From assembly GCF_031179145.1 (NCBI RefSeq), contig NZ_JAPSIB010000018.1, positions 39,814 to 103,813 on the forward strand: a stretch of 64,000 nt of DNA, read 5' to 3'. Positions within the stretch are counted from its first letter, which is position 1; each line of letters starts with the position of its first letter. Under the pieces are notes generated by a model, which saw only the letters and a program-made list of their open reading frames with translations, was not told where the DNA came from and did not search any database. The translations under genes were made by a program, and so were the position numbers. This DNA comes from Brevibacterium sp. (lineage in GTDB: Bacteria; Actinomycetota; Actinomycetes; Actinomycetales; Brevibacteriaceae). Below, piece by piece: positions 1,869 through 14,931 of this stretch.

Positions 1869-2402
1869 ATGACTGATGAGTTCACGTGGGACACGTTCGC
1901 CCGCCTGGTGACCACCGACGAATCCGCGCTCGCTGCGGTTCGGCAGTTCACCGCCGACCCTGACGCGTACTTCGCCGACCACGAGGATGACCTCATCCAA
2001 CGCGGGATCGAGGACTCCGAAGAAGTCACCGGAGCCGTCGTCGTCATCGACGCCCTCGGCAAGGTCGACGAGGTGGCCTACATGGGTTGGAAGTCCCCGG
2101 TCGACGAAGTGGTCGGACTGCTCGAGCGCATTCCCCGCGTCAAGGACACCGGAATCAACCTCGAGGTTCTCGTCGAACCCGGGTACCCGCAGGAAGCCGA
2201 TGTCGAGACCGTCGTCGGCTGGATCAACGCCCTTCTCGCGGACTCCGACGTCACCGTGGCGATCCTCGACGAGGACTCCGACGCCTATCCCCTCATCGCG
2301 GTGCCCACAGACAGGGCAGCGTCAATTGCCGAGACGGCGGACAGCCTCGGCGCCGAGGTGCGCATCCTTCGGGCAGACGCATCCGAGGTGCCGCACGCAT
2401 GA
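1869..2402 (+). CDS. conserved hypothetical protein (possibly DUF6630-like), coupled to the next gene
   Basis: The predicted 177-aa acidic cytoplasmic protein has no signal peptide or membrane segment. The start is the ATG at 1869, since the upstream extension in the track lacks support. The pattern LLERIPRVKDTGINLEVLVE... WINALLADSDVTVAILDED looks like an alpha/beta fold and reminds me of DUF6630 proteins, but I cannot confirm this. Its stop overlaps the ATG of the 1035-aa gene (ATGA at 2399), so the two are translationally coupled and probably act together. Function unknown. Confidence 0.75.
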   Translation: MTDEFTWDTFARLVTTDESALAAVRQFTADPDAYFADHEDDLIQRGIEDSEEVTGAVVVIDALGKVDEVAYMGWKSPVDEVVGLLERIPRVKDTGINLEVLVEPGYPQEADVETVVGWINALLADSDVTVAILDEDSDAYPLIAVPTDRAASIAETADSLGAEVRILRADASEVPHA

Positions 2403-5400
2403 CCTCCGACGACTCCCCCAGCGACGGTGCCCACTCCGACCGTAGGGACTTCGACGAGGTGCCTCAGGACGGCGGGCCCGACTTCGAGATCGTCGACCAC
2501 ACTCCTGCGGAGTTCGTCTCCCTGACCGATGAGCTGCTCAGTCGCGAGTGGACGGACGAAGAGTTCGACATCGGCGACGCCACAGTCTTCCCCCTCAACG
2601 GCTTGTGGGCGCTCAGCCCGTCCACCTGGGACCCTGAGGATCCGGTCGCGGACTGGGCCGGACACCCCGCCGTTCGATGGGCAGACGACTACCGCGATGC
2701 ACTCGTCGCGGCCTGGGGCTCCCCCGAGACGTTCGTCCCTCGGTTCGATCCTGAAACGGGCGACCCGGACGGAGTCATCGATGTCATCTTCAACTCGCTC
2801 GGAATCAAGGACGCTCTGGAGTGGAGGCACGATGACCGGATCGTCCTGCTCTCGTCCCGGTGGATCGACGAACCGGGTGCCAGCCGCTTCGATCTGCTTC
2901 TGCTGATCGTGCCAGAGGCTGTCTACTCCGGTGGCCAGGTCACCCTCTTCACCGAAGAAGCCACCATCGAGTCCCGGCTCTTCCATGGTGAGGAACTTGG
3001 CGAACTGCACCGTCGAGCCGCGCTCATGTCCTATGCCGCGGGACGCGGCGAGGAGACCGTGCTCACCCCGGGCACCGACGAGACCGGCGCGACCCGGTGC
3101 TGCTACCGCGTTAACAGATACACGTGGGCGCACTGGATATTCACTGCGGATTCCCGCGCACTCCTGCTCATCCTCGACACCACCACTCATGGACTCCTCG
3201 ACCCGGGCGACGAGGACGAGGATCACGAGGCGGCCATGGACCAACTGCGCCGCCTCTACTACGGAGTTCCGGACGACCTCCTCGAACTGATGTCACGACC
3301 CGCTTCTTCGGTCAAGGGCACAGTCAGCACGGTCGAAGGATTTCCGGTCAACGGGCGAGTTCTGCCGCGGATCTCCGGTGCATTCTGGTTCGACGGCGAA
3401 GACTGGCACAAGTCCCCCGGGCTGATGGAATACGCCAACCGGCATTCCGTCGGGTTCGGCGATGTCGGCTTCGACGACGCCGTCCGCCGCCCCCTGCGCC
3501 TGGGAGGCGACTTCCGGCCCGAGCATCTCCTTCTGCCAGGACACGTCAACCTCGCCGATCCCGATGAGATTGCGCGCGCTCTCACCTTTTTCGAGGCAGC
3601 ATTCGAGAACTCTCCGCACCCGGAGGGCGCTCGCCCCGAAGGACTCATTCGCCTCGGCCCTGCCACTCCCGCTCACGGAGCCACTGCGATCCTCAACGAC
3701 ATCGAGACCGCTGTCACGAGCTGGTGGGACACCGGACTCGAGACCTATGAGAAGTCCGGAAGCCCCTTCACGATGATCGGCCGCCCATTCGAGAGCTTCG
3801 GTCGCAGGGAACTCATGGCGCACCTGGGCAACGCCGAGGAATGGACCGCGGATGTCTTCGCGGACTGGATGGGGTCCCTCATCGAGGCCGCCACTGAGAG
3901 ATGGGGACAGCCCTTCACCATCGAAGCCCACGACTCCGATGGCCGACGGCCGATCCGCATCCCTGCGGCGCGCACGCTGCGCGGCAATGGATTCGCGTCG
4001 GCTCCAGCGTGGTGGGTCAACGGCTTGGTCGTCTCCTTCAACCATGGCTCCCCGCCCCACTGGGACATGGCCCCCGACGGCTGGCACCTGCCCGGCACCC
4101 GCCCGGGACCGATCGCTGTGGCCTACATCTTTCCCGCCGATGCCGTCATCGACCCGATCTGCGGAACCCGCGTGGACGCGCTGCGCTACCGGGCCCACTG
4201 CGTCGCCGCCCTGCAGGGAGTCTGCTCACAGTCTGTGACCTGGGATTCCACTCCAATCGGAGACCGTGCGAACAACCCGGAAAAGATCCGCGATCTCTTC
4301 GAGCACACCACCGCCGAGGCGGTCCGCTGGGTCCTGCCGGCACCGCGGCTCAAGGGCGCTCCGCCCTCGGACGGTTACCACGCCTGGCACTTCACCCATG
4401 ACAATCGCGCACTGCTTCTCACCTGGAGCGAGGACAGTCCGTTCAATGTGTTCGCGCGCCCGCGCGATGCCCGTGCCGCCTCGGTGACGTACGGCGGGGC
4501 AGCCACCGCCTATGAGAAGCAGGCCGCCCTCTACGACGGACTGCCCCCGGATCTGCTGTCCCTCCTCGCCGACCGGTCTGAGGACACAGGAATGCTCACC
4601 GTCACCGACGGAGAAGGCCGCTCCCTGGCCGCTGCGACCGGAGTGCTCTGGTACGACGGACTCGACTGGATCGTGCCCACCGGGCTGTTGACAGCGGTCC
4701 ACGACTACGTTGACAGCTCCGAAGCCGGTGCCGATGACGAGGGCGATCCGCCGATGACGGCCGCGAACGTCCTCATGGGCGGGTCGGATGGCCTGCGAAC
4801 GGCGGCCTTCGTGCTTGCGGCGGGGAACCGGTTCAACGCCACGCTCTTCCTCGAGGACTCCCAGTACTCCACCATCGCCTTGGGTCGGGTTCCGCAGCCC
4901 GACGAGGTGAGCAGAGCTCTGGATTCCTTTGGCACCGTGGAGAACGTGGTCATGTACGGCAACCTCGAAGGATTTCTCAATGTGCGCGTCCACGCCACCG
5001 ACTTCGACCGCTTGGTGCCGGCTGCTCTGAGCAACCCCGACCCCCGCAGTCGCCGGGAACTGTTCCTGTGGCTGCTGGGTTCGGGCGCCTCGGCGACAGT
5101 GCAGTACACCCGCTCGACGAACCTCACGATCCTTCTCGACAATGAGGTCCTCGACCCGGACTCGGATGCGATCCTCGTCAATGAGCTGCTCGCACGCGGT
5201 GCGGCACAGATGGTCCACGCCGTGGCACCGCGGGTGCGCGGAGGTGGACATCCCCTGATGCAACTCTGCGACCGCGACATTGACGATGCCGATCTCCAGC
5301 CCCTCTACGAAGCGTTCTTCGACGGCGCCGTCTCGACGGTCGACGGCAGCGGGGGTGCCACTCTCGGCCACTACCTCAACCTCGACCTCCCTGTCGGACG

Positions 5401-5506
5401 AGACGGACAGACCGTGGCCGAATACGTGGCAGCAGGTCGGTTCCCCCACTCCCGGGACCGCACGGCACTGCTCGAGCACCTCCACACGTACCGCGATCAC
5501 AAGTAA
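2399..5506 (+). CDS. large hypothetical protein with internal domain duplication and ankyrin-like C-terminus
   Basis: The 1035-aa acidic protein starts at the ATG overlapping the previous stop; the 104 extra residues in the track are out-of-frame translation of that gene. It has no signal peptide or membrane segment. Two similar units are visible. In the first, HWIFTADSRALLLILD is followed by LYYGVPDDLLELM and SGAFWFDGEDWHKSPGL. In the second, HFTHDNRALLLTW is followed by LYDGLPPDLLSLL and GVLWYDGLDWIVPTGL. The last ~150 residues (FLWLLGSGA ... NELLARGAAQMVH ... PLYEAFFDGA) look like degenerate ankyrin-type helix pairs. I do not recognise the family. The pairing with a small gene is reminiscent of effector/immunity or sensor pairs, but no toxin motif is visible. 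Confidence 0.85.
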   Translation: MTSDDSPSDGAHSDRRDFDEVPQDGGPDFEIVDHTPAEFVSLTDELLSREWTDEEFDIGDATVFPLNGLWALSPSTWDPEDPVADWAGHPAVRWADDYRDALVAAWGSPETFVPRFDPETGDPDGVIDVIFNSLGIKDALEWRHDDRIVLLSSRWIDEPGASRFDLLLLIVPEAVYSGGQVTLFTEEATIESRLFHGEELGELHRRAALMSYAAGRGEETVLTPGTDETGATRCCYRVNRYTWAHWIFTADSRALLLILDTTTHGLLDPGDEDEDHEAAMDQLRRLYYGVPDDLLELMSRPASSVKGTVSTVEGFPVNGRVLPRISGAFWFDGEDWHKSPGLMEYANRHSVGFGDVGFDDAVRRPLRLGGDFRPEHLLLPGHVNLADPDEIARALTFFEAAFENSPHPEGARPEGLIRLGPATPAHGATAILNDIETAVTSWWDTGLETYEKSGSPFTMIGRPFESFGRRELMAHLGNAEEWTADVFADWMGSLIEAATERWGQPFTIEAHDSDGRRPIRIPAARTLRGNGFASAPAWWVNGLVVSFNHGSPPHWDMAPDGWHLPGTRPGPIAVAYIFPADAVIDPICGTRVDALRYRAHCVAALQGVCSQSVTWDSTPIGDRANNPEKIRDLFEHTTAEAVRWVLPAPRLKGAPPSDGYHAWHFTHDNRALLLTWSEDSPFNVFARPRDARAASVTYGGAATAYEKQAALYDGLPPDLLSLLADRSEDTGMLTVTDGEGRSLAAATGVLWYDGLDWIVPTGLLTAVHDYVDSSEAGADDEGDPPMTAANVLMGGSDGLRTAAFVLAAGNRFNATLFLEDSQYSTIALGRVPQPDEVSRALDSFGTVENVVMYGNLEGFLNVRVHATDFDRLVPAALSNPDPRSRRELFLWLLGSGASATVQYTRSTNLTILLDNEVLDPDSDAILVNELLARGAAQMVHAVAPRVRGGGHPLMQLCDRDIDDADLQPLYEAFFDGAVSTVDGSGGATLGHYLNLDLPVGRDGQTVAEYVAAGRFPHSRDRTALLEHLHTYRDHK

Positions 5507-5604: not shown

Positions 5605-6294
5605 TCACTTCGCGAGCGCCTTCTCCACTCGTTCCCGCGCAGCCAACAGCGCGTCGCGCGCGGTCGGGATGTCGAACCGCCCTGCGGGAGCGATGACGCT
5701 CAGCGCCCCCAAGCACTCGCCGGCAGAAATCACTGGAACAGCGACGACGTCGACGACATCACCGAGCCATTCCGAATGGGACTGGGCGAATCCTCGGTCC
5801 CGCACCTCGGCGAGGGTGTCGTCCATCCCTTCCCACCTGCTCGTGTCGACATGTGTGTCGAAAGCGAGCAGCACGAGACCTGACGCCGATGTCGTCAGGT
5901 CCAAGTGCGGCTCAGCTGCCCGGCTGATGGCAAAGGGCCGTTTCGGTTCGTGCCGTTCGATGATGATCGCTTCGTTGCCGTTGAGCACCGCATAGGAGAT
6001 CGGCTCATTGAGCTCTGCGACCAAAGCCTCCATGGTTCGGGTCACTTCCGGCGGAACGGCGGAATACTCGATCGCGAAACGGCCGAACATCGCTGCCCGG
6101 GGTGAAAGCTGATAGTCGCGCTTCTCATTCTGCACCAGCCATCCGGCCTCAGCGAGCGTCGATACGTACTGGTGAGTGGCAGCTCGTGACCATCCGAGTT
6201 CGCGAGACAATTCGGAAACGCTGGTTCTTCCTACGGGGAACTTGAGGAATGTCTCGAGGACCAGGATCGTCTTGCTCACAGATTGCAGGCTCAT
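5605..6294 (-). CDS. IclR-family transcriptional regulator
   Basis: The 229-aa protein has an N-terminal winged helix-turn-helix (residues ~1-60: SVSKTILVLETFL ... VSELSRELGWSRAATHQYVSTLAEAGWL) and a C-terminal IclR effector domain (~70-229: SYAVLNGNEAIIIERHE ... DVVAVPVISAGECLGALSVIAP). IclR proteins sense small carbon compounds and usually control a neighbouring catabolic operon. It is the last gene of the minus-strand ABC transporter/M19/unknown-protein block and is the obvious candidate regulator of it. A hairpin lies between it and the substrate-binding protein gene, so it may be transcribed separately or at a lower level. Confidence 0.93.
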   Translation of the reverse strand: MSLQSVSKTILVLETFLKFPVGRTSVSELSRELGWSRAATHQYVSTLAEAGWLVQNEKRDYQLSPRAAMFGRFAIEYSAVPPEVTRTMEALVAELNEPISYAVLNGNEAIIIERHEPKRPFAISRAAEPHLDLTTSASGLVLLAFDTHVDTSRWEGMDDTLAEVRDRGFAQSHSEWLGDVVDVVAVPVISAGECLGALSVIAPAGRFDIPTARDALLAARERVEKALAK

Positions 6295-6325
6295 GCTTAG
6301 CCATTATTCCCATCTCGCCATCACA

Positions 6326-6354
6326 ATGCCCGACAGCGATAGGCTGCCGGGCAT
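6326..6354 (-). terminator. hairpin between the substrate-binding protein and IclR genes
   Basis: An interrupted inverted repeat (ATGCCCG-A-CAGC, 5-nt loop, GCTG-C-CGGGCAT) gives an 11-bp stem with one mismatch. It lies 14 bp beyond the stop of the ABC substrate-binding protein gene on the minus strand. No T-run follows, so it could attenuate rather than fully stop transcription into iclR. Confidence 0.45.
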
Positions 6355-6367
6355 CATGCATGAGTGT

Positions 6368-7225
6368 CTACAGCAGATTCGCTTCGCCCGGATGCATCAC
6401 CTGCGGGTCCAGACCGTACTTCTCGGCGATCTTGTCGAGCTCTCCGGACTCACGAAGATCGGCGACAACCTCGTCGATCGCCTTGCCGAGCTGTTCGTTG
6501 TCCTTCGACACAGGGAAGTTGGTCTGGCCGGGAGCTTTCGTCGCGGGCAGACGGTCATCCGGCTTGAGCGGCGTCACCTTGTACCCTTCGATCTCATGCT
6601 TCTTGAGGTACTCGGTACCCGCGATGTAGCCCTGAACCGTGCCGTCGATGCGCCCGGCGCCGATGTCTTCGAATACGGCATCGTCGTTCTGGTAGATCTT
6701 GAGCTCTCCGCCGAATATCTCCTTGAGATCGTCGACTCCGACGAGACCCTGGCCGACGCCGATCGTCAGCTTCTCGAGTTCGTCGACATTGTCGATTCCC
6801 TCTTTCGTCACGGAGGAGAACGGCGAGGTCACGACCGGAGCAGAGAGCCGCACCTTCTCCGCGCGTTCCTTCGTCCGGTACCACGAGCCCAATGTCGTGT
6901 CGGCACGACCGGTGGCGACAGAAGTGATCATTGCCGCCGAATCGCCCTTGTTGATCTTGAGTGTGAGGCATTCTTGCTCCGCGAACTTCGTCAAGATGTC
7001 GCCCTCGAGTCCCGTCAGGGTCCCAGGTCCCTCGGACATCGAGAACGGAGTGTACTCGTACTGGGCGACGGTGAGAACACCCTCTTCCAGTGTCTTCAAT
7101 CCCTCGTGCCGCGGTTTGCAATCCTCCGCAGCTGCATCGGGAGCTCCTGGTGGAGTTCCACCGCATCCGCTGAGAACGATCAGAGCGGTCGCTGCCGCCG
7201 AGGCTATGGCGAGGATTCTATTCAT
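6368..7225 (-). CDS. ABC transporter substrate-binding lipoprotein, polar amino acid type (SBP_bac_3)
   Basis: The predicted product is 285 aa. I start it at the ATG at 7225, preceded by AAAGGAG at 5-nt spacing, rather than the track start 11 codons upstream. A lipoprotein signal peptide is clear: MNRILAIASAAATALIVLSGC with lipobox LSGC. The mature part shows family 3 features (TVAQYEYTPFSM, LTGLEGDILTKFAE, ADTTLGSWYRTKERAEKVRLS, ELDKIAEKYGL). It should capture a small amino-acid-like solute outside the membrane and deliver it to the two permeases encoded just upstream. Given the M19 dipeptidase-like gene in the same operon, the ligand may be an unusual amino acid, opine or dipeptide. Confidence 0.93.
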   Translation of the reverse strand: MNRILAIASAAATALIVLSGCGGTPPGAPDAAAEDCKPRHEGLKTLEEGVLTVAQYEYTPFSMSEGPGTLTGLEGDILTKFAEQECLTLKINKGDSAAMITSVATGRADTTLGSWYRTKERAEKVRLSAPVVTSPFSSVTKEGIDNVDELEKLTIGVGQGLVGVDDLKEIFGGELKIYQNDDAVFEDIGAGRIDGTVQGYIAGTEYLKKHEIEGYKVTPLKPDDRLPATKAPGQTNFPVSKDNEQLGKAIDEVVADLRESGELDKIAEKYGLDPQVMHPGEANLL

Positions 7226-7254
7226 GATGACTCCTTTGTCAGTCGGTGAGTGTG

Positions 7255-8001
7255 TCAATTGGTGAGTTGGCGTTCTTCCGCAGTACGGAGTTTGCCGGCT
7301 GCGGGCAGCAGTGCCTTGATCGCCTGCTTCTTCGATCTCTGCTTTGGCGTGCCCATCCGCTCTTCAAGGTAGCCGCTGAGCGCAGCCCCTGGAATCGTGA
7401 TGCACAGGTAGAGGACGGCTGCCGCCGTGTAGACGGACATGTATTCGAACGTCGCCGATCCGATGATTCCTGCCTGCTGCATGATCTCCGGAACAGTGAT
7501 GACAGTCGCCAGCGAGGTGGCCTGGAAGATGATGATCGTGAGATTGACCAAGGGCGGTATCGAGATCCGGGCGGCCTGCGGAATCACAATGAATCGGTAG
7601 GTGTCCACCACCGACATCGACAGCGAATTCGCCGCTTCGGACTGTCCTTTTGGAACGGCACCCAGCCCGGCTCGGATCATCTCCGAGGAGTACCCGGCAG
7701 CTGAGAATGTCAATGCTGCAACAGCGGCAGGATAGGGTGCGAGCAACACTCCCAATTGCGGCAGACCCTGATAGAACAGGAATAGCAGCACCAGAATCGG
7801 GATGCCCCGTCCGAGTTCCACCACCACCAGGGCCGAATAGCTCACGAGCTTGGATGGTGCCTCGACGAGGAGCGCGAGGAAGAACCCGAGGACGTACCCG
7901 AACAGACACGACACGCAGGTCATTGCGATGGCGACCCACAGGCCGGGAAGCAGATCAGGTATGTACTGTGGCCAATCATAGAGCCAAGCGAAATCGTTCA
8001 T
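7255..8001 (-). CDS. ABC transporter permease, polar amino acid type (HisM/GlnP family)
   Basis: The product is 248 aa and starts at the ATG at 8001, which overlaps the previous gene's stop (ATGA); the 351-aa track version is an upstream extension. It has about five hydrophobic segments and the EAA-type loop FSAAGYSSEMIRAGLGAVPKGQSEAA, where the cytoplasmic loop docks on the ATPase. It should form the heterodimeric channel with the adjacent 214-aa permease. The last ~35 residues are basic and hydrophilic (RMGTPKQRSKKQAIKAL). Confidence 0.92.
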   Translation of the reverse strand: MNDFAWLYDWPQYIPDLLPGLWVAIAMTCVSCLFGYVLGFFLALLVEAPSKLVSYSALVVVELGRGIPILVLLFLFYQGLPQLGVLLAPYPAAVAALTFSAAGYSSEMIRAGLGAVPKGQSEAANSLSMSVVDTYRFIVIPQAARISIPPLVNLTIIIFQATSLATVITVPEIMQQAGIIGSATFEYMSVYTAAAVLYLCITIPGAALSGYLEERMGTPKQRSKKQAIKALLPAAGKLRTAEERQLTN

Positions 8002-8642
8002 GCGACGGCATACCTCCTCGTGATGCGCGTGTGGACGGTGCGCGAGAAAACGGCGATCGGCAGGCTCAGAAGCAGGTACACCGCACCGGCGATTCCGAAC
8101 ATGTACAGGCCGTGCGCGTGGTACTGCGTCATGATTCCCGCACGGAATACCAGGTCGGCCACTCCGATCGTCGAGACCAGCGCCGAGTCTTTGAGCAGAC
8201 CGATGATCTGAGTCGCGACGGACGGGCTCACCGCTCTGAAGAGCTGCGGACCGATGACGAACCGCAGGGTCGACCATCGATCGAGGTTGAGCGCCCCGGC
8301 AGCTTCCCATTGCCCGGCAGGGATTGCTTTCATACCCCCACGGTAGATCTCAGACATATAGGCAGTCGCGATGATCGACAGGGTGAGCAGCGATGCGGTG
8401 ACTGGCGATAGGGTTATTCCGAGCTGTCCTACGCCGAAGAAGGAGATGAACAGCCAGACCAGCGTGGGAACGCCGCGGATCACATGGACGATGGAGTTGT
8501 AGATTCCGCGGATAAGAGCGAACTTGCTCTCAGCGAGGACGAGGAGTGGCAGCCCGAGCACGATCCCGATCGCGGCGGAGCCGAAAGTCATGACGATCGT
8601 CCACCCGGCTCCGCGCGCAATGTACGCGAAGATCTCGAACAT
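7998..8642 (-). CDS. ABC transporter permease, polar amino acid type
   Basis: The 214-aa inner-membrane protein has the typical family start (FAYIARGAGWTIVMTFGSAAIGIVLGLPL) and the EAA loop TAYMSEIYRGGMKAIPAGQWEAA. The family usually spans 210-240 aa, so it is full length. It ends in ATGA overlap with the second permease and begins 1 bp after the ATPase stop, which indicates one tightly coupled operon. Confidence 0.93.
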   Translation of the reverse strand: MFEIFAYIARGAGWTIVMTFGSAAIGIVLGLPLLVLAESKFALIRGIYNSIVHVIRGVPTLVWLFISFFGVGQLGITLSPVTASLLTLSIIATAYMSEIYRGGMKAIPAGQWEAAGALNLDRWSTLRFVIGPQLFRAVSPSVATQIIGLLKDSALVSTIGVADLVFRAGIMTQYHAHGLYMFGIAGAVYLLLSLPIAVFSRTVHTRITRRYAVA

Positions 8643-8643
8643 G

Positions 8644-9456
8644 TCAGCGCCCTAGGACCGCGGAGAGGAACTTCTGCGTGCGGATATTATTCGGCGCAGT
8701 CATGATCTGTTCAGGTGGCCCTTGCTCGATGATGGAGCCCTCGACCATGACAGCGACCTGATTGGATACGTGGCGTGCGAACTCCATCTCATGCGTGACG
8801 ACGAGCATCGTCATATTGTCGGAGGCGAGTTTTCTCATCACCTGGAGGATCTCGGCGCCGATCTCGGGGTCGAGTCCGGAGGTCGGTTCGTCGAAGAGCA
8901 TGAGCTGCGGATCCATCGCGAGGGCGCGAGCAATGGCGATGCGCTGCTGCTGGCCCCCTGAGCACTGTGCGGGATATGCGCCGGCCTTGCTTTCGAGTCC
9001 GACTCTCTTCAGCTCTTGCATCGCCCTTTCCTCTGCCTCTGCCTTGGATCGTCGGTGCACCCGCATCTGCGGCAGGGTCACGTTCTTCAAAGCGGTGAAA
9101 TGGGGAAAGAGGTTGAATGATTGGAACACCATTCCCGTATAGTTGCGCAGGTTGCGTACGGATGCTTTCGACGGCGTACCCGTGTCGAAATCGACTGTGG
9201 CGTCTCCAATGCGCAGCCTTCCGCTGCTGGGCACCTCCAAGAGATTGAGACAGCGAATGAGGCTCGACTTGCCGGCACCCGATGGTCCGATGATCGAAAT
9301 CACTTCGCCCTTGGCGACATCGAGTGAGACGTCGTTCACTGCCTTGTGTTCGCCGAACTGTTTGGTCAGCTGCACAGCTGAAACGAATGAACCTTCCATT
9401 GCCGGGGCACCTTCTTCGAGAGCCGAGGAATTCGGGGACAGATGGGAAATGGACAT
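8644..9456 (-). CDS. ABC transporter ATP-binding protein, amino acid type (GlnQ/HisP family)
   Basis: The product is 270 aa from the ATG at 9456, which follows AAGGAGT. Walker A (GPSGAGKSS), Q-loop (VFQSFNLFPHFTALKNV), signature (CSGGQQQRIAIARAL), Walker B (LMLFDEPTSGLDPE) and H-loop (VVTHEME) are all intact, so it should be an active ATPase energising the two adjacent permeases. A non-conserved leader of ~25 residues precedes the domain; the internal Met in APAMEGSF is an alternative start. It sits between the M19 gene and the permeases on the minus strand. Confidence 0.94.
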   Translation of the reverse strand: MSISHLSPNSSALEEGAPAMEGSFVSAVQLTKQFGEHKAVNDVSLDVAKGEVISIIGPSGAGKSSLIRCLNLLEVPSSGRLRIGDATVDFDTGTPSKASVRNLRNYTGMVFQSFNLFPHFTALKNVTLPQMRVHRRSKAEAEERAMQELKRVGLESKAGAYPAQCSGGQQQRIAIARALAMDPQLMLFDEPTSGLDPEIGAEILQVMRKLASDNMTMLVVTHEMEFARHVSNQVAVMVEGSIIEQGPPEQIMTAPNNIRTQKFLSAVLGR

Positions 9457-9470
9457 GTTCCACGACTCCT

Positions 9471-10457
9471 TCAGAGTTGTTTGAACGTTCTGCGATAGAA
9501 ATTCAGCCAGTTCTCGCCCATGATCTTGGCGACTTCCTGGTCGTCGAATCCCCGTTCGCGCAGGCACCGCTCCGCGTTCGGGAATTGTGATGGATCGTCG
9601 AACCAGCCCAATCGAGGCTGCGGACCCGAATTCGTGCTGGAGCCGGCTCCGTACTGGATCTCTCTGGCCCACCGCCCCTGCCGCATCCACTCGAGATACT
9701 CCATACCACCCGTCTGATCGAAGTCGGTACCGATGCCGACATGGTCGATGCCGATGCGATCGACTGTCCAAGCGACGAGTTCAGACCACTTCTGAGATGT
9801 GGTGTAGTCACCCGCGATGTTTCTGTAGATCGACAACCCGATGACGCCCCCATTGTCCTTGAGCGCGTCGAGCACCTCGGTCGGCTTGTTCCGTGGATGC
9901 GGGGCAAGTTCCGCCGGATTGGAATGAGTGATCGCCACCGGTTCCTGCGAGTGCCTGATCGCATCCATGGTCGTCGTATTCCCGACGTGCGAGAGGTCGA
10001 TGACCATTCCGCATCTGTTCATCTCGCGCACCACGTACTTTCCGTATCTCGACAACCCGGAATCGTGCGGTTCGTAGCAGGATCCTCCGATGTCGGATTG
10101 GATGTTGTACGTCAACTGCCCAACCCGAGTGCCCATGCGGGCGAAGAGCTCGACGTATCCTAACCGTCCCTGCAGGAAAGCCACATTCTGGAATCCGAGG
10201 AGGATGGCGCATCGACCCGAATCCGCAATCCGAGTGATGTCATCGGCAGTGTAGGCAATCTCGACCAGGTCGGCGTTGTCTTCAGCCATGTGACGCCATT
10301 TGACGATTTGATCCATTGATTCGGTCGCATCTTCCCAGAACCCCACGGTGACCGTGGCGCATCCGACAGTACCCGCGGCAATCTCGTCAAGGGCAGGTCT
10401 GTGGTCGGGTTTCTCCTTTTCCAGCGGGGTGCAAAGCAGGCTGTCGACGTACAGCAT
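9471..10457 (-). CDS. M19 (membrane dipeptidase)-like protein with altered metal site
   Basis: The product is 328 aa from the ATG at 10457, preceded by AAGGA. The track ATG at 10508 overlaps the upstream stop and would add 17 residues. The M19 fold is clear: GLSRYGKYVVREMNRCGMVI, DLSHVG, ITHSNP and HVGIGTDFD. Compared with renal dipeptidase, the His and Asp of the usual DGHxD motif become YVDSLLC and the bridging Glu becomes Gln in GFQN, while the two later His and the Asp of GTDFD remain. Such proteins are a distinct M19 subgroup; from memory PvdM of pyoverdine maturation is one. It may therefore not be a peptidase. Its operon holds an ABC importer and an unknown 857-aa protein. Confidence 0.88.
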   Translation of the reverse strand: MLYVDSLLCTPLEKEKPDHRPALDEIAAGTVGCATVTVGFWEDATESMDQIVKWRHMAEDNADLVEIAYTADDITRIADSGRCAILLGFQNVAFLQGRLGYVELFARMGTRVGQLTYNIQSDIGGSCYEPHDSGLSRYGKYVVREMNRCGMVIDLSHVGNTTTMDAIRHSQEPVAITHSNPAELAPHPRNKPTEVLDALKDNGGVIGLSIYRNIAGDYTTSQKWSELVAWTVDRIGIDHVGIGTDFDQTGGMEYLEWMRQGRWAREIQYGAGSSTNSGPQPRLGWFDDPSQFPNAERCLRERGFDDQEVAKIMGENWLNFYRRTFKQL

Positions 10458-10504
10458 TGTGCGTTCCTTCGTTCGGGTGTCCGTGGACGTGGTGGGGTCT
10501 GTGG

Positions 10505-13078
10505 TCATCGCGGAGACGGTCCGTGGGCAGCGATGAATGCGGCGATGTTCTGGTTGTCGAGTTCGTCCGGGTCAGTGAGCAGGTAGAGCTCCTCGCTGGT
10601 GAACTGCTTGGTAATCCGCTCTCCGGGCCGAATGACATCGAGAACCGTTCCGCCCGTATGCTGTCGTGAGATCGGGGTGTCGACGTCAAGTCCGGCGTTG
10701 CCTCGGTAGTAGATATTCCAGAATGTTGTCGCATCGACTTCTCGGCCCGTGGCGCAGAAGTCTCCCATTGTTGCGAAGTATGAGCTCCGCAGAAGCTCGG
10801 GATCATCCCCTTTCCTCACGCGTCCGACAAACTTGTCCGGCTTCTCCTCGACGTCGAAGACGATTCCGTATCGGTACAGTTCGAGCTGGATTCCTGCGAC
10901 GGCATGGTCGGGGACGACGTTTCGGATCTCCACTCGGAGCGGTTCGGAGTCGGCGTGGGCTCCGATGAGATTGACGAGGACGTGCCCGGTGACAAGGAGG
11001 CTCTGGCCGAGGTTGTCGATGACAAGGACATCGTGCTCGAATCTGTGGGTGGGAGCCTGCCAGGCTTCCGCCTTTCCGGTCTTGGGATCGAGTGATTCGA
11101 TGAGCAAGTCGCCGAATGTCGTGGCAGCCTCGATATTGGCCGTCATGGCTGTGACGACGAACTCCCGAGCCCCATGCCATGACCCTTGCGGGACATTGAG
11201 CGCTTGGAAGGCTCGACCGGCCATCAGTCGGATCTCTCGATACTTCATCGCGATCGTGTCAGTCGCATGTCCTGACGGCGGGGTGATAGGTGTCTGCACC
11301 GGAGTGAGGACGACCTTGACCTTCGACTGATCCGATGGCCGGACCTCGGGAGCCTCCAGTTGGGCTCGAGGTCGTCGAGTGGGAACGTTCGGCTTCTCGT
11401 ACGACCACCACCATGTCGAATCGTCCGCCCCTGCGATCTCATCGCGATACGGAGCCGATTCGAAGATCAATCCACGAACGTCTCTGCCCATATGATCCTC
11501 GGTGCGATCGAGACCGTGGATGAACGAATTGACGAACCGGATCACCCACACAGGAACGAAGTCGATGTCGTGTGGATCGGCGTGAGCGGTGGCGAATGGT
11601 TTGTCCTGGAGAGACAGCACGAGTCGCGCGATGTACTCAAGTTCAGGGTGCTCTGTCAGCAATTCACCGAGAAATATGAGATCGGTGCCTTCGATCGCGG
11701 ACTGCAGTGCCCGAATCTGCATTGGGTAGCTCTGAATGAGCTCGTGGGCTTCCGGCACCTCTTCGCGTGGCCCCGACCGCGGTTCCTCGGCAGCTCGCGA
11801 CTGATACCACACCCGGTCCCTGAACTCATCGTCATTGAGCGGCAGTTCGAGTGCCCATCGGTAGTCAGTGTTGATGATGTCAGCGATCGTCGACACGCGG
11901 GTAGTCGGATCGAGATCGAGGTGTTCTTCGAAGTTCAGCCGCTCCTCTGCAACCTTGTCGCAGTAGTCAGGGACCAGTTCCATGAGAAGAGCATTGAACG
12001 AGTGCAATGCCTCCTTGCTCACCTGATTCATCGACTCCCGATGAATGGTGCCGAGAACAGTCCGTCCGGGTGATGGAACGACTTCGCCTCGAGCGGCAGC
12101 TCGAACCTTCGCTCTGATCCGCCGCAAGTCGGCGACGATCTCCATGTTGCTGGTGAAGAATCGATACGAGGTTGGAAGGAACGACCGATAGGTGATGGTG
12201 CGATTCAGGTGCCGTTCCAAAGCGGCGAATTCTGAAGGGCCGATCTCATCGTTGGTGAGCACATGTCCGATGACCTCGAGGTAGGCGGCAATGTAGGAGT
12301 GGACCAGAACGGGACGATTGTAGAAGAGCATCGCCAGGCCCAGAGCTGAACCGTTTCCGACTCCGATGAGACGCTTGACCGATTGGTCGAGGCGGACAGC
12401 CGTTTCCGGTGCGTCCAGTCGGGCAAGCTCTTCGACGAGGTCGACCGAGAGCTCTCGCATGAGATAGGCGGAGAGCATCTGAGCATGGTAGGAGGTCTTG
12501 AGCGGGTGCCCTGGGCGGATCCCGGCGAACGGCATCGTGCCGAACGTGCCGTTGCCGTCGAGACCGGTATTGCGCATGACGTAACCGACATTGCGGAGAT
12601 CCTTGGTGTCCGGCTGTTCACCACTGGCGAGAGCTTGTCGAACCGACCTGAATATCCTCAGGCTTTGATTGGACCGGAACCAGACCAGAGTATTGCTTGT
12701 GGCTCGCCCTTCATAGAGCCGCGGAATCTCCTCCTTGGTGATGCGCACCTCTTCAGCGGTGGCCACTCCGTCGAGAAGAGCTCCGGTCATGTCCCAGCTG
12801 GTGCCGATGATTCGACCGGTGCGGTTCTCATGCGAGGGTTCCTGCATGAATGCGAGGAAGGTGAGTGCGCCCTCGGGTGTGGTGATGGAATAGCGAGCTT
12901 CGCCATTTCCTCGAGCGTCGACTGCGAAGATCTCTCTCTCGATGCGCCACTTCTCTCGGATCATCTTTGCGATGAAGCTCCGTGAAGCGGAGAGTCGATT
13001 CGGCTGCATGGCGCCGAGGTTCCGGGGGTCCATCACGAAATGCGGATCGTCGAATGTCCCGACTTGGTTCTGTGCCAC
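10505..13078 (-). CDS. uncharacterised 857-aa protein, probable two-domain fusion, first gene of the M19/ABC operon
   Basis: The protein starts at a GTG after GAAGGGCAG and has no signal peptide or membrane segment. Residues ~30-420 contain recurring motif-like stretches (KWRIEREIFAVD, IIGTSWDMTGALLDG, LRNVGYVMRNTGLDGNGTFG, RLIGVGNGSALGLAM). I recall similar stretches in uncharacterised proteobacterial proteins, but cannot verify this. A Pro-rich linker near residue 575-600 (TPVQTPITPPSG) leads to a second domain (YREIRLMAGRAFQALNVPQG ...) that reminds me of DUF3726. No catalytic motif of a known enzyme class is evident. Overlap with or close spacing to the M19 gene and the ABC genes argues for a shared catabolic or processing role. 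Function unknown. Confidence 0.85.
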   Translation of the reverse strand: MAQNQVGTFDDPHFVMDPRNLGAMQPNRLSASRSFIAKMIREKWRIEREIFAVDARGNGEARYSITTPEGALTFLAFMQEPSHENRTGRIIGTSWDMTGALLDGVATAEEVRITKEEIPRLYEGRATSNTLVWFRSNQSLRIFRSVRQALASGEQPDTKDLRNVGYVMRNTGLDGNGTFGTMPFAGIRPGHPLKTSYHAQMLSAYLMRELSVDLVEELARLDAPETAVRLDQSVKRLIGVGNGSALGLAMLFYNRPVLVHSYIAAYLEVIGHVLTNDEIGPSEFAALERHLNRTITYRSFLPTSYRFFTSNMEIVADLRRIRAKVRAAARGEVVPSPGRTVLGTIHRESMNQVSKEALHSFNALLMELVPDYCDKVAEERLNFEEHLDLDPTTRVSTIADIINTDYRWALELPLNDDEFRDRVWYQSRAAEEPRSGPREEVPEAHELIQSYPMQIRALQSAIEGTDLIFLGELLTEHPELEYIARLVLSLQDKPFATAHADPHDIDFVPVWVIRFVNSFIHGLDRTEDHMGRDVRGLIFESAPYRDEIAGADDSTWWWSYEKPNVPTRRPRAQLEAPEVRPSDQSKVKVVLTPVQTPITPPSGHATDTIAMKYREIRLMAGRAFQALNVPQGSWHGAREFVVTAMTANIEAATTFGDLLIESLDPKTGKAEAWQAPTHRFEHDVLVIDNLGQSLLVTGHVLVNLIGAHADSEPLRVEIRNVVPDHAVAGIQLELYRYGIVFDVEEKPDKFVGRVRKGDDPELLRSSYFATMGDFCATGREVDATTFWNIYYRGNAGLDVDTPISRQHTGGTVLDVIRPGERITKQFTSEELYLLTDPDELDNQNIAAFIAAHGPSPR

Positions 13079-13097
13079 TCTGCACTGCCCTTCAACC

Positions 13098-13143
13098 GTA
13101 CGTCAATTTATATTTGACGCTCATCTAGTGTCTGTTGACGTAC
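13098..13143 (-). promoter_or_regulatory. operator/promoter region with repeated TTGACG boxes
   Basis: Upstream of the 857-aa gene lies an AT-rich patch holding a perfect inverted repeat CGTCAA-N7-TTGACG (13101-13119). A third TTGACG box (13135-13140) forms a larger perfect repeat, GTACGTCAA...TTGACGTAC, with the first. The minus strand offers TATAAA as a possible -10 within the inner repeat. This suits binding of a dimeric or tetrameric repressor such as the IclR protein at the operon end. It is the only strong candidate promoter for the seven-gene block. Confidence 0.6.
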
Positions 13144-13296
13144 TTTTGAGATTAGCAAAGTCGACAATGCTCGAACAAGGGGAATTCAGATATTTCTTCA
13201 GCCGACTCGAAGGGGCTCAGAATCATTCGAGCCAGCACTCGCAACGACCATCAGCACCGGTCGCTTCGAATGGAGCCGTGAGCAGACGCAGACGAA

Positions 13297-13330
13297 CTGA
13301 GGCCGCACCTGAGATCAGGTGCGGCCTCAG
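13297..13330 (-). terminator. strong hairpin terminator after the M20 gene
   Basis: Perfect 16-bp arms CTGAGGCCGCACCTGA and TCAGGTGCGGCCTCAG are separated by only 2 nt, so the folded form would have a ~14-bp stem and a small loop. It starts 25 bp beyond the stop of the M20 gene. On the minus strand a weak pyrimidine-rich stretch (TTCGTCTGCGTCTGCT) follows. It insulates the M20 gene from the 857-aa operon. Confidence 0.7.
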
Positions 13331-13354
13331 CAGAGGAACCCAGCGCGGGTCAGC

Positions 13355-14590
13355 TCACGCGCGGAACTCGACCTGGGTGGCTCCCTTGGGACGCGCAGCC
13401 TTGAGCTCCTGGTATTTCGCACGCAGCTCAGGGGTGGCGGCGATGTCGATGACCGTGGCGGCCATCGTCTTGGCTCCGTCGATGACGGCGGCGTCGGCGG
13501 CCGGGGTGATCGCTGCGGCGGTGAATGCAGGATTGTGGGCGGGAGCCGACTCACCGATGAACGTCATCATCGGGTGGATCGAGGGCACCACTTGGGACAC
13601 ATTGCCCATGTCCGTGGAGCCGCCGCCCAGACCTGTCGAGGAATCAACGGTGCGACCGGTCAGGGGCAAGTTCGCATCCCACAGATCGGCGAGGGTCTCG
13701 TCGTGGTCGATCGGCGCATAGGCGTACTCCGTCGATTCCCATTCCCACCGGCAGCCGGTGGCGATCGCGGCTCCTTCGAAGCATTTGAGAACCCGCTGCT
13801 TCGTCTCCCGCCAGACGTCGAGGTCGAAGGCCCGGACTTCGACCTGGACCGTCGTGTGCTCGGGGATGATGTTCGTCGCCTGCCCGCCTTCGGAGATGAA
13901 GGCGTTGAGATTGACCTCCTTGGGCAGATGCTGGCGCAGCATCGCAATCGCATTCAGGGCCAGCACTGCGGCGTTGCTCGCATTGATACCCTGCTCCGGC
14001 ATGCCGGCCGCATGCGCCGTCTTTCCTGTGTAGTCCACCTTGAACCGGTCGACCGCAGTCGCATTCATCGACCGGGCACCGTGACTGTCGGCCGTCATCT
14101 CCGGCGTCTCGGTCATCCCGTGGATCATCAGGGAGATGTCCGCATCCTCCCACGCACCCGCTTCGAGCATCGCCACCTTGCCGCCGCCGTGCTCCTCGGC
14201 GGGAGTGCCGAGCAGCTTCACGGTCAACCCCAGCTCATCGGCCACCTCGGCGAGCGCCAGGGCAGCGCCGACCCCAGCGGAGGCGATGACGTTGTGACCA
14301 CATCCGTGACCGATCCCGGGCAGGGCATCGTACTCCGCACAGATCGCGACGACGAAGTCGCCGCTGCCGCGAACGGCTTCGATCGCCGTCTCCACACCGT
14401 AGACCCCTGTCCTGGTGTCGAACCCGGCGGCCGACATGGTCTCTGCGATGAGCTTCGCCGATTCGAACTCCTCCCAGGACAGCTCCGGGTGCGCGTGAAT
14501 CGTGTGGCTGAGGGTGAGCAGCAGTTCACGCAGGGAATCGACCTTGGCACTGGTGCGATTCTTCGCTTCGGCAATCGACGGCATCGTCAT
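13355..14590 (-). CDS. M20-family amidohydrolase/aminoacylase (AbgB/HipO-like)
   Basis: The product is 411 aa from the ATG at 14590, which follows GAGGAGT; the track adds 58 unsupported residues. M20 hallmarks are present: AEYDALPGIGHGCGHNVIA (His and Asp metal ligands), the GTPAEEHGGGK Glu pair, a dimerisation domain with YTGKTAHAAGMPEQGINA, and a C-terminal metal-site segment STGLGGGSTDMGNVS ... HNPAF. The family hydrolyses N-acyl amino acids, aminobenzoyl-glutamate or hippurate in the cytoplasm. It is monocistronic, divergent from the glycerate kinase operon, and ends at a strong hairpin. Substrate unknown. Confidence 0.92.
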   Translation of the reverse strand: MTMPSIAEAKNRTSAKVDSLRELLLTLSHTIHAHPELSWEEFESAKLIAETMSAAGFDTRTGVYGVETAIEAVRGSGDFVVAICAEYDALPGIGHGCGHNVIASAGVGAALALAEVADELGLTVKLLGTPAEEHGGGKVAMLEAGAWEDADISLMIHGMTETPEMTADSHGARSMNATAVDRFKVDYTGKTAHAAGMPEQGINASNAAVLALNAIAMLRQHLPKEVNLNAFISEGGQATNIIPEHTTVQVEVRAFDLDVWRETKQRVLKCFEGAAIATGCRWEWESTEYAYAPIDHDETLADLWDANLPLTGRTVDSSTGLGGGSTDMGNVSQVVPSIHPMMTFIGESAPAHNPAFTAAAITPAADAAVIDGAKTMAATVIDIAATPELRAKYQELKAARPKGATQVEFRA

Positions 14591-14931
14591 ATCCACTCCT
14601 CGTTTCGACAGGGCTCTCAGCGTCAATACTGCGCGATTCGCGGTTCGTCCGCTGACAGAATCCGATATCTGAATCCTACGCACACGACTGTTCGTCCGGT
14701 GCGTGCCCGGTGGTGGCTCGGCCATGATCAGAGCGCCGGAAACACTCATCGCGAACGAAGGCACGGACCGGTGGACCTATTCGAACACCTGAAGCCGGTT
14801 CACCTGTTGTTCACATGAGAAAGTCCTTATAAACAGGCGATCGACGCCACAACTATGCCAAGCTCACATTCGAACACCGCGACAATCGGCCGTGGTCGGA
14901 TTCCCGCCACTCGAACCGGAAGAGGACACCA
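14591..14931. promoter_or_regulatory. 341-bp divergent intergenic region (M20 gene / glycerate kinase operon)
   Basis: No gene is supported here. It contains an 11-bp direct repeat ATTCGAACACC at 14779-14789 and 14868-14878, a pair of GTTCAC boxes near 14799-14815 (GGTTCACCTGTTGTTCACATG) and a TTATAAA stretch at 14827-14833 that could be a -10 element for the plus-strand operon. The TGTTCA-type boxes resemble sequences ahead of the gntP gene at 19.1 kb, which suggests shared control, perhaps by the DeoR regulator at 23.2 kb. Confidence 0.45.

Follow-up and report, generated by a model that had tools for sequence, protein, structure and literature searches.

A ligand-poor M19-fold protein and its unclassified partner in an ABC importer operon of Brevibacterium sp.

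Organization of the operon

We analysed a 64,000-nucleotide stretch of DNA from Brevibacterium sp. (the window), which belongs to a genome of 3.83 Mb in 44 contigs. Its minus strand carries an operon that encodes, in this order, an 857-aa protein composed of the domains A and B, an M19-like protein, an ABC transporter ATPase, two permeases, a binding protein and an IclR regulator (Table 1). The M19-like reading frame, which had been picked out in an earlier sequence-only reading, is genuine, and its start methionine is identical to that of its orthologues. The ATG of the ATPase gene lies 14 nt past the M19 stop and has an AAGGAG ribosome-binding site. The operon order is conserved in Brevibacterium, Microbacterium, Leucobacter and Sediminivirga and partly in Labedella. 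An IclR gene also adjoins the module of M19, A and B genes in S. meliloti, Bosea, Aminobacter and Alloyangia.

Table 1 Features of the operon in the window
Feature	Position	Strand	Remarks
IclR-family regulator	5605..6294	-	Pfam IclR_C and HTH_IclR
ABC substrate-binding protein SBP_bac_3, lipoprotein-like N-terminus	6368..7225	-	Pfam PF00497, 2.2e-23
ABC permease 2, start approximate	7255..7998	-	HEQRo_perm_3TM above its cut-off
ABC permease 1, cystine/ectoine type	7998..8642	-	Order conserved in loci L003-L014
ABC transporter ATPase, polar amino acid type	8644..9456	-	NCBIfam TcyN/GlnQ/EhuA-type matches, all under curated cut-offs
M19-like protein P0001, 328 aa	9471..10457	-	Pfam PF01244, 6.4e-71; residue table; structure model
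A-B fusion protein, 857 aa, GTG start	10505..13078	-	No Pfam, NCBIfam or convincing PDB match
B domain, DUF3726-like, ~residues 600-857	10505-11281	-	Separate B genes of rhizobia, hhalign 98.7%
A domain, ~residues 1-558	11405-13078	-	In alphaproteobacteria a gene of its own (~560 aa) beside M19
Operator-like inverted repeat GTACGTCAA...TTGACGTAC, third GTCAA between the arms	13098..13143	.	Just upstream of A-B start

The window holds three copies of GTACGTCAA against 0.09 expected, and two of them fall within the inverted repeat. Related GTCAA/TTGAC arrays are found upstream of A-B in other Brevibacterium. Judged by its sequence the repeat is operator-like, and we infer a regulatory function for it. 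Scans for promoters and terminators gave nothing beyond shuffled sequences, and no Rfam RNA was found in the operon.

The GC content is 59-60% at window positions 6000-14000 versus 63-70% elsewhere in the window, which makes a recent transfer likely. The M19-like gene occurs in five of 57 Brevibacterium genomes, and matches at 1e-40 or better in seven of 396 genomes sampled across the order. The operon segment was probably acquired by transfer.

Upstream of the operon lies an M20 amidohydrolase gene (13355-14764, minus strand), which among the related loci has the same position only in B. celere (L003). In the loci of Sediminivirga, Leucobacter and Labedella (L009-L014), a second, divergent IclR gene, 44-58% identical to that of the window, lies at about 4435-5280, upstream of the operon. 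Two further reading frames of the window, of 1139 aa (2087-5503) and 256 aa (1233-2000), lie beside a DUF429 protein and have no Pfam match.

Remodelled active site of the M19-like protein

The M19-like protein matches PF01244 (Peptidase_M19) over the whole domain with 239.6 bits against a cut-off of 26 and thus belongs to this fold family. Canonical Brevibacterium paralogues, one of which is encoded in the same genome, show the motifs DGHND / G(V/I)EGG / DLSHV / SHS / HPRN / G(G/S)D, where the M19-like protein has DSLLC / GFQN / DLSHV / THS / HPRN / GTDFD. The HxD motif is therefore replaced by D-S-L-L-C and the bridging glutamate by Gln90 within GFQN. In addition, the histidine of the LTH motif has become Tyr117, at a position that presumably corresponds to His152 of human renal dipeptidase. 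His157, His178, Arg189 and Asp245 are retained. The replacement of HxD and of the bridging glutamate had been claimed before, as had the retention of the two downstream histidines and of the aspartate of GTDFD, and all of this is borne out by the residue table.

Compared with the ligand set of the renal dipeptidase type (HxD, bridging Glu, two His), the histidine and aspartate of HxD and the glutamate are swapped and the two histidines are left. By this alignment, three of the five usual metal-holding residues are gone, and the standard binuclear site is not buildable from the standard five ligands. The two histidines, Asp245 and perhaps Gln90 could still bind one metal.

These changes are shared by a whole clade. 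In a tree of 94 M19 sequences, 65 form a ligand-poor clade with support of 98/93. Gln-Asn occupies the bridging site in all 65 members, and Tyr117, Asn118, His157, His178, Arg189 and Asp245 are invariant across them. D-L-x stands at HxD in every row with a readable N-terminus, one row being truncated at this point. For the HxD comparison we rely on the paralogue residue table, as some canonical rows in the tree alignment have shifted N-terminal columns. Such uniform swaps are not due to chance. The sequence-only reading overlooked that the substitutions are the mark of an old subfamily and not of a single odd protein.

The nearest solved sequence is 2i5g (3e-57), which is also matched by the subfamily profile at 1.3e-137. 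With D-x-L in place of HxD, GFQN, a tyrosine for the LTH histidine and a place in the common clade, the protein falls into the 2i5g-type ligand-poor subfamily. The AlphaFold model of the protein (pLDDT 86.7) leads to the same assignment in Foldseek, where 2i5g is the best PDB match (E 1.1e-32, TM 0.87), the renal-type dipeptidases come next and the top 20 matches are all M19 structures. PvdM (3b40), to which the protein had been likened, ranks eleventh, behind several true dipeptidases, and the neighbourhood is a transporter operon, not a set of pyoverdine genes. The model comparison therefore upholds the M19 fold and not the kinship with PvdM. As the PDB entry 2i5g dates from 2006, the subfamily itself is not a new one. 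Our literature search found no papers on PA5396, 2I5G, DUF3726, or M19 together with PvdM.

The dN/dS ratios against orthologues are 0.034-0.21 where computable, rough values given that synonymous sites are near saturation. This purifying selection indicates that the M19-like gene is not decaying. The site has gained a set of invariant polar residues, Asp5, Gln90, Asn91, Gln114, Tyr117 and Asn118, which suggests a changed active site rather than a dead one.

The partner protein A-B

The adjoining A-B protein, which the earlier reading passed over, is the more unusual part of the operon. The sequence profiles of A and of B gave chance matches only against the PDB. A model of the 857-aa protein (pLDDT 74, from a shallow alignment) found nothing in Foldseek that reached E 0.001; Ldh_2-type dehydrogenases head the list with E 0.01-0.2 across ~145 residues, a hint that concerns the B domain only. 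From this weak fold likeness of the modelled B domain, DUF3726 may be a degenerate relative of Ldh_2.

No Pfam match to DUF3726 (PF12525) lies above the cut-off in the window, and B is linked to this family only through the rhizobial B proteins, which match roseobacter DUF3726 proteins weakly (E 0.011). A DUF3726 search of the Brevibacterium genome gave no match, a result of little weight as the controls were undetected too. In Mesorhizobium 131-2-1, an 814-aa protein consists of A and a genuine DUF3726 domain. The fusion occurs both in the window and in Mesorhizobium, and the second case is independent evidence for joint action of A and B.

Our A alignment left out the downstream ORF of locus L018, which is an Ldh_2 gene. 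In a 1.8-Mb genome (L015 / G421 contig 43), many stops disrupt the A gene beside an intact M19 gene, and one TAA interrupts the A match of two small genomes (G629 and G719).

Distribution and two types of the module

The module of M19, A and B is present in nearly all of a 58-member subclade. A was detected in 53 of 385 alphaproteobacterial genomes, and an M19 gene of the ligand-poor type lies in 46 of the 51 fetched loci around A (L110-L160). A plasmid of Mesorhizobium ciceri (L079), which carries A and B with an ABC importer and an aldehyde dehydrogenase and has no nearby M19 gene, counts against the function proposed below. The sister clade (2i5g type) adjoins the dgcAB genes of dimethylglycine catabolism and is found without A and B.

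Two types of the module can be distinguished. In type I the module is accompanied by LysR, aldehyde dehydrogenase, Ldh_2, betaine transporters and sometimes N-methylglutamate-dehydrogenase-like (mgd-like) genes. In type II, to which the window belongs, IclR and an amino-acid or polyamine-type ABC importer are present, and the operon core contains neither aldehyde dehydrogenase nor Ldh_2. The types also split in the M19 tree (type II 100/99, type I 99/65). Type I occurs in roseobacters and in genomes of 1.2-1.4 Mb with 28-36% GC, which are SAR11-like in size and GC alone. The betaine-type uptake system beside the module is BCCT in roseobacters and a glycine-betaine ABC transporter in Aminobacter and the small low-GC genomes.

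In Labedella the module is followed by genes for a mu-crystallin/OCD protein and a DAO oxidase, which might stand in for Ldh_2 and Mgd. A search of the window's genome yielded no Ldh_2; a sarcosine-oxidase-alpha-like protein (44% identity) is encoded elsewhere in this genome. Several alphaproteobacterial modules (L016, L147-L150) contain a SAM-dependent carboxyl methyltransferase (Methyltransf_7) of the plant salicylate-methyltransferase family.

Proposed function

From the changed residues, the clade, the selection on the gene, the operon and the co-occurrence of the module genes, all of which were observed, we propose, with a probability of about 0.5, that the M19-like protein is a non-peptidase M19-fold amidohydrolase, perhaps with a single metal, in a dedicated catabolic operon for a betaine-like or N-heterocyclic compound, perhaps a homarine-like osmolyte. 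The amino-acid-type ABC importer would take up a small betaine-like or N-heterocyclic carboxylate, which the A-B protein and the M19-like protein would process under the regulation of the IclR protein. In this scheme the M19-like protein would hydrolyse an amide intermediate, for example an N-formyl compound, left by ring opening. The remodelled site may hold at most one metal on His157 and His178 with Gln90 and/or water, while Asp245 would act as the acid/base and Arg189 would grip the substrate carboxylate.

The breakdown of trigonelline serves, by analogy, as the model for the order of a five-enzyme route. A-B would open the ring, aldehyde dehydrogenase would oxidize the product, the M19-like protein would remove the N-formyl group, Ldh_2 would reduce the imine, and Mgd would act last. 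Of this scheme the window itself shows A-B, M19, the importer and the regulator. The gene set and hosts of type I fit well the breakdown of homarine (N-methylpicolinate) to N-methylglutamate. The gene tmaR, which encodes an AraC-type regulator, adjoins mgdABCD in R. pomeroyi, and Mgd is cited as part of homarine catabolism (PMC13390433). In TM1040, sarcosine-oxidase-type BDAG genes and an HTH regulator lie beside the module; because this is the arrangement described for mgdABCD-tmaR, we count it in favour of the homarine-type reading. What counts against homarine for the window is that its operon belongs to type II, is without aldehyde dehydrogenase and Ldh_2, and has an importer of the amino-acid type. 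Its own substrate may differ from homarine.

An alternative that we regard as doubtful places the M19-like protein in the same module with a non-hydrolytic role, a hydration, isomerisation or ring opening through Tyr117, Asn118, Gln90 and Asp245, possibly free of metal. With the HxD ligands, the bridging glutamate and the LTH histidine, the classic water-activating centre is gone, and the new invariant set stands in its place. Moreover, no known ring-opening enzyme family was found in the module, so some member of it must do the ring opening. The strict retention of His157, His178, Asp245 and Arg189 speaks against this alternative, as it argues that part of the metal/substrate site is still used.

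It is improbable that the M19-like protein is a catalytically dead subunit which stabilises or regulates A-B. In favour of it are the position of the gene beside A in most loci and the loss of three metal ligands. Against it, the rest of the active site does not vary even between very distant phyla, and in the 2i5g-type sister clade identical residues are retained without A. Least probable is a dipeptidase or related peptide hydrolase with substitute ligands, fed with dipeptides by the importer: the clear M19 fold, the retained substrate-site residues Arg189 and Asp245 and the polar amino acid/cystine type of the importer fit it, but in all phyla the gene is partnered by betaine transporters, aldehyde dehydrogenase, Ldh_2 and enzymes of N-methyl amines and not by peptide transporters, and the genome already has a canonical M19 paralogue.

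With the usual ligand set incomplete and a gene context that leads away from peptide hydrolysis, it would be misleading to call the protein simply a dipeptidase, as had been argued from the letters alone, and the automatic label is probably wrong for this gene. More tentatively, A-B and the ligand-poor M19 protein might form a new kind of ring-opening and hydrolysing system for N-heterocyclic betaines, in which A would have a fold with no known relative and the substrate of the actinobacterial type II would be an undescribed one.

Significance

Labels of "membrane dipeptidase" are found in thousands of genomes, and the ligand-poor clade shows that a set of the proteins so labelled should not be taken for peptidases. 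The hosts of the module range from soil and skin/cheese-type actinobacteria through rhizobia and roseobacters to very small ocean genomes, and its largest partner, A-B, belongs to no recognised family. For the type II operon of actinobacteria, in which A and B are fused, the literature searched appears to give no description. If the link to homarine or related betaines is true, many hypothetical proteins would gain a likely function, and a direct growth test would be at hand.

Comparison with known systems

The closest known protein is 2i5g, a P. aeruginosa "amidohydrolase" that we take to be PA5396. It shares with the window protein the replaced HxD motif (D-G-L), GFQN, both downstream histidines, HPRN and GTDF. 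The difference lies in the gene context, as its pepD gene stands beside dgcAB (dimethylglycine demethylase) and a DUF5943 protein. Renal dipeptidase and Sco3058 (M19, MEROPS) have in common with the window protein the TIM-barrel M19 fold, the two downstream histidines, the arginine of H(P/A)RN and the strand-8 aspartate, whereas their HxD, bridging glutamate and LTH histidine are all replaced in it.

PvdM is an M19 homologue with a non-peptidase role. Several true dipeptidases are closer to the window protein than PvdM is, and no gene context common to the two was found. E. coli NagA is a single-metal amidohydrolase in which the first metal-binding motif is likewise lost and two histidines and the strand-8 aspartate are left; however, NagA keeps the bridging glutamate where the window protein has glutamine.

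A homarine operon that leads to N-methylglutamate, homABCDER, was reportedly described in 2026 by Ferrer-Gonzalez et al. from Rhodobacterales, SAR11 and SAR116. The type I module may correspond to it: its hosts are of a similar kind, and in it M19, A and DUF3726 stand with LysR, aldehyde dehydrogenase, Ldh_2, betaine transporters and, nearby, mgd-like genes. The window operon has A, B and M19 in common with type I and differs from it as a type II operon, in which A and B are fused, the regulator is IclR and the importer is an amino-acid ABC system.
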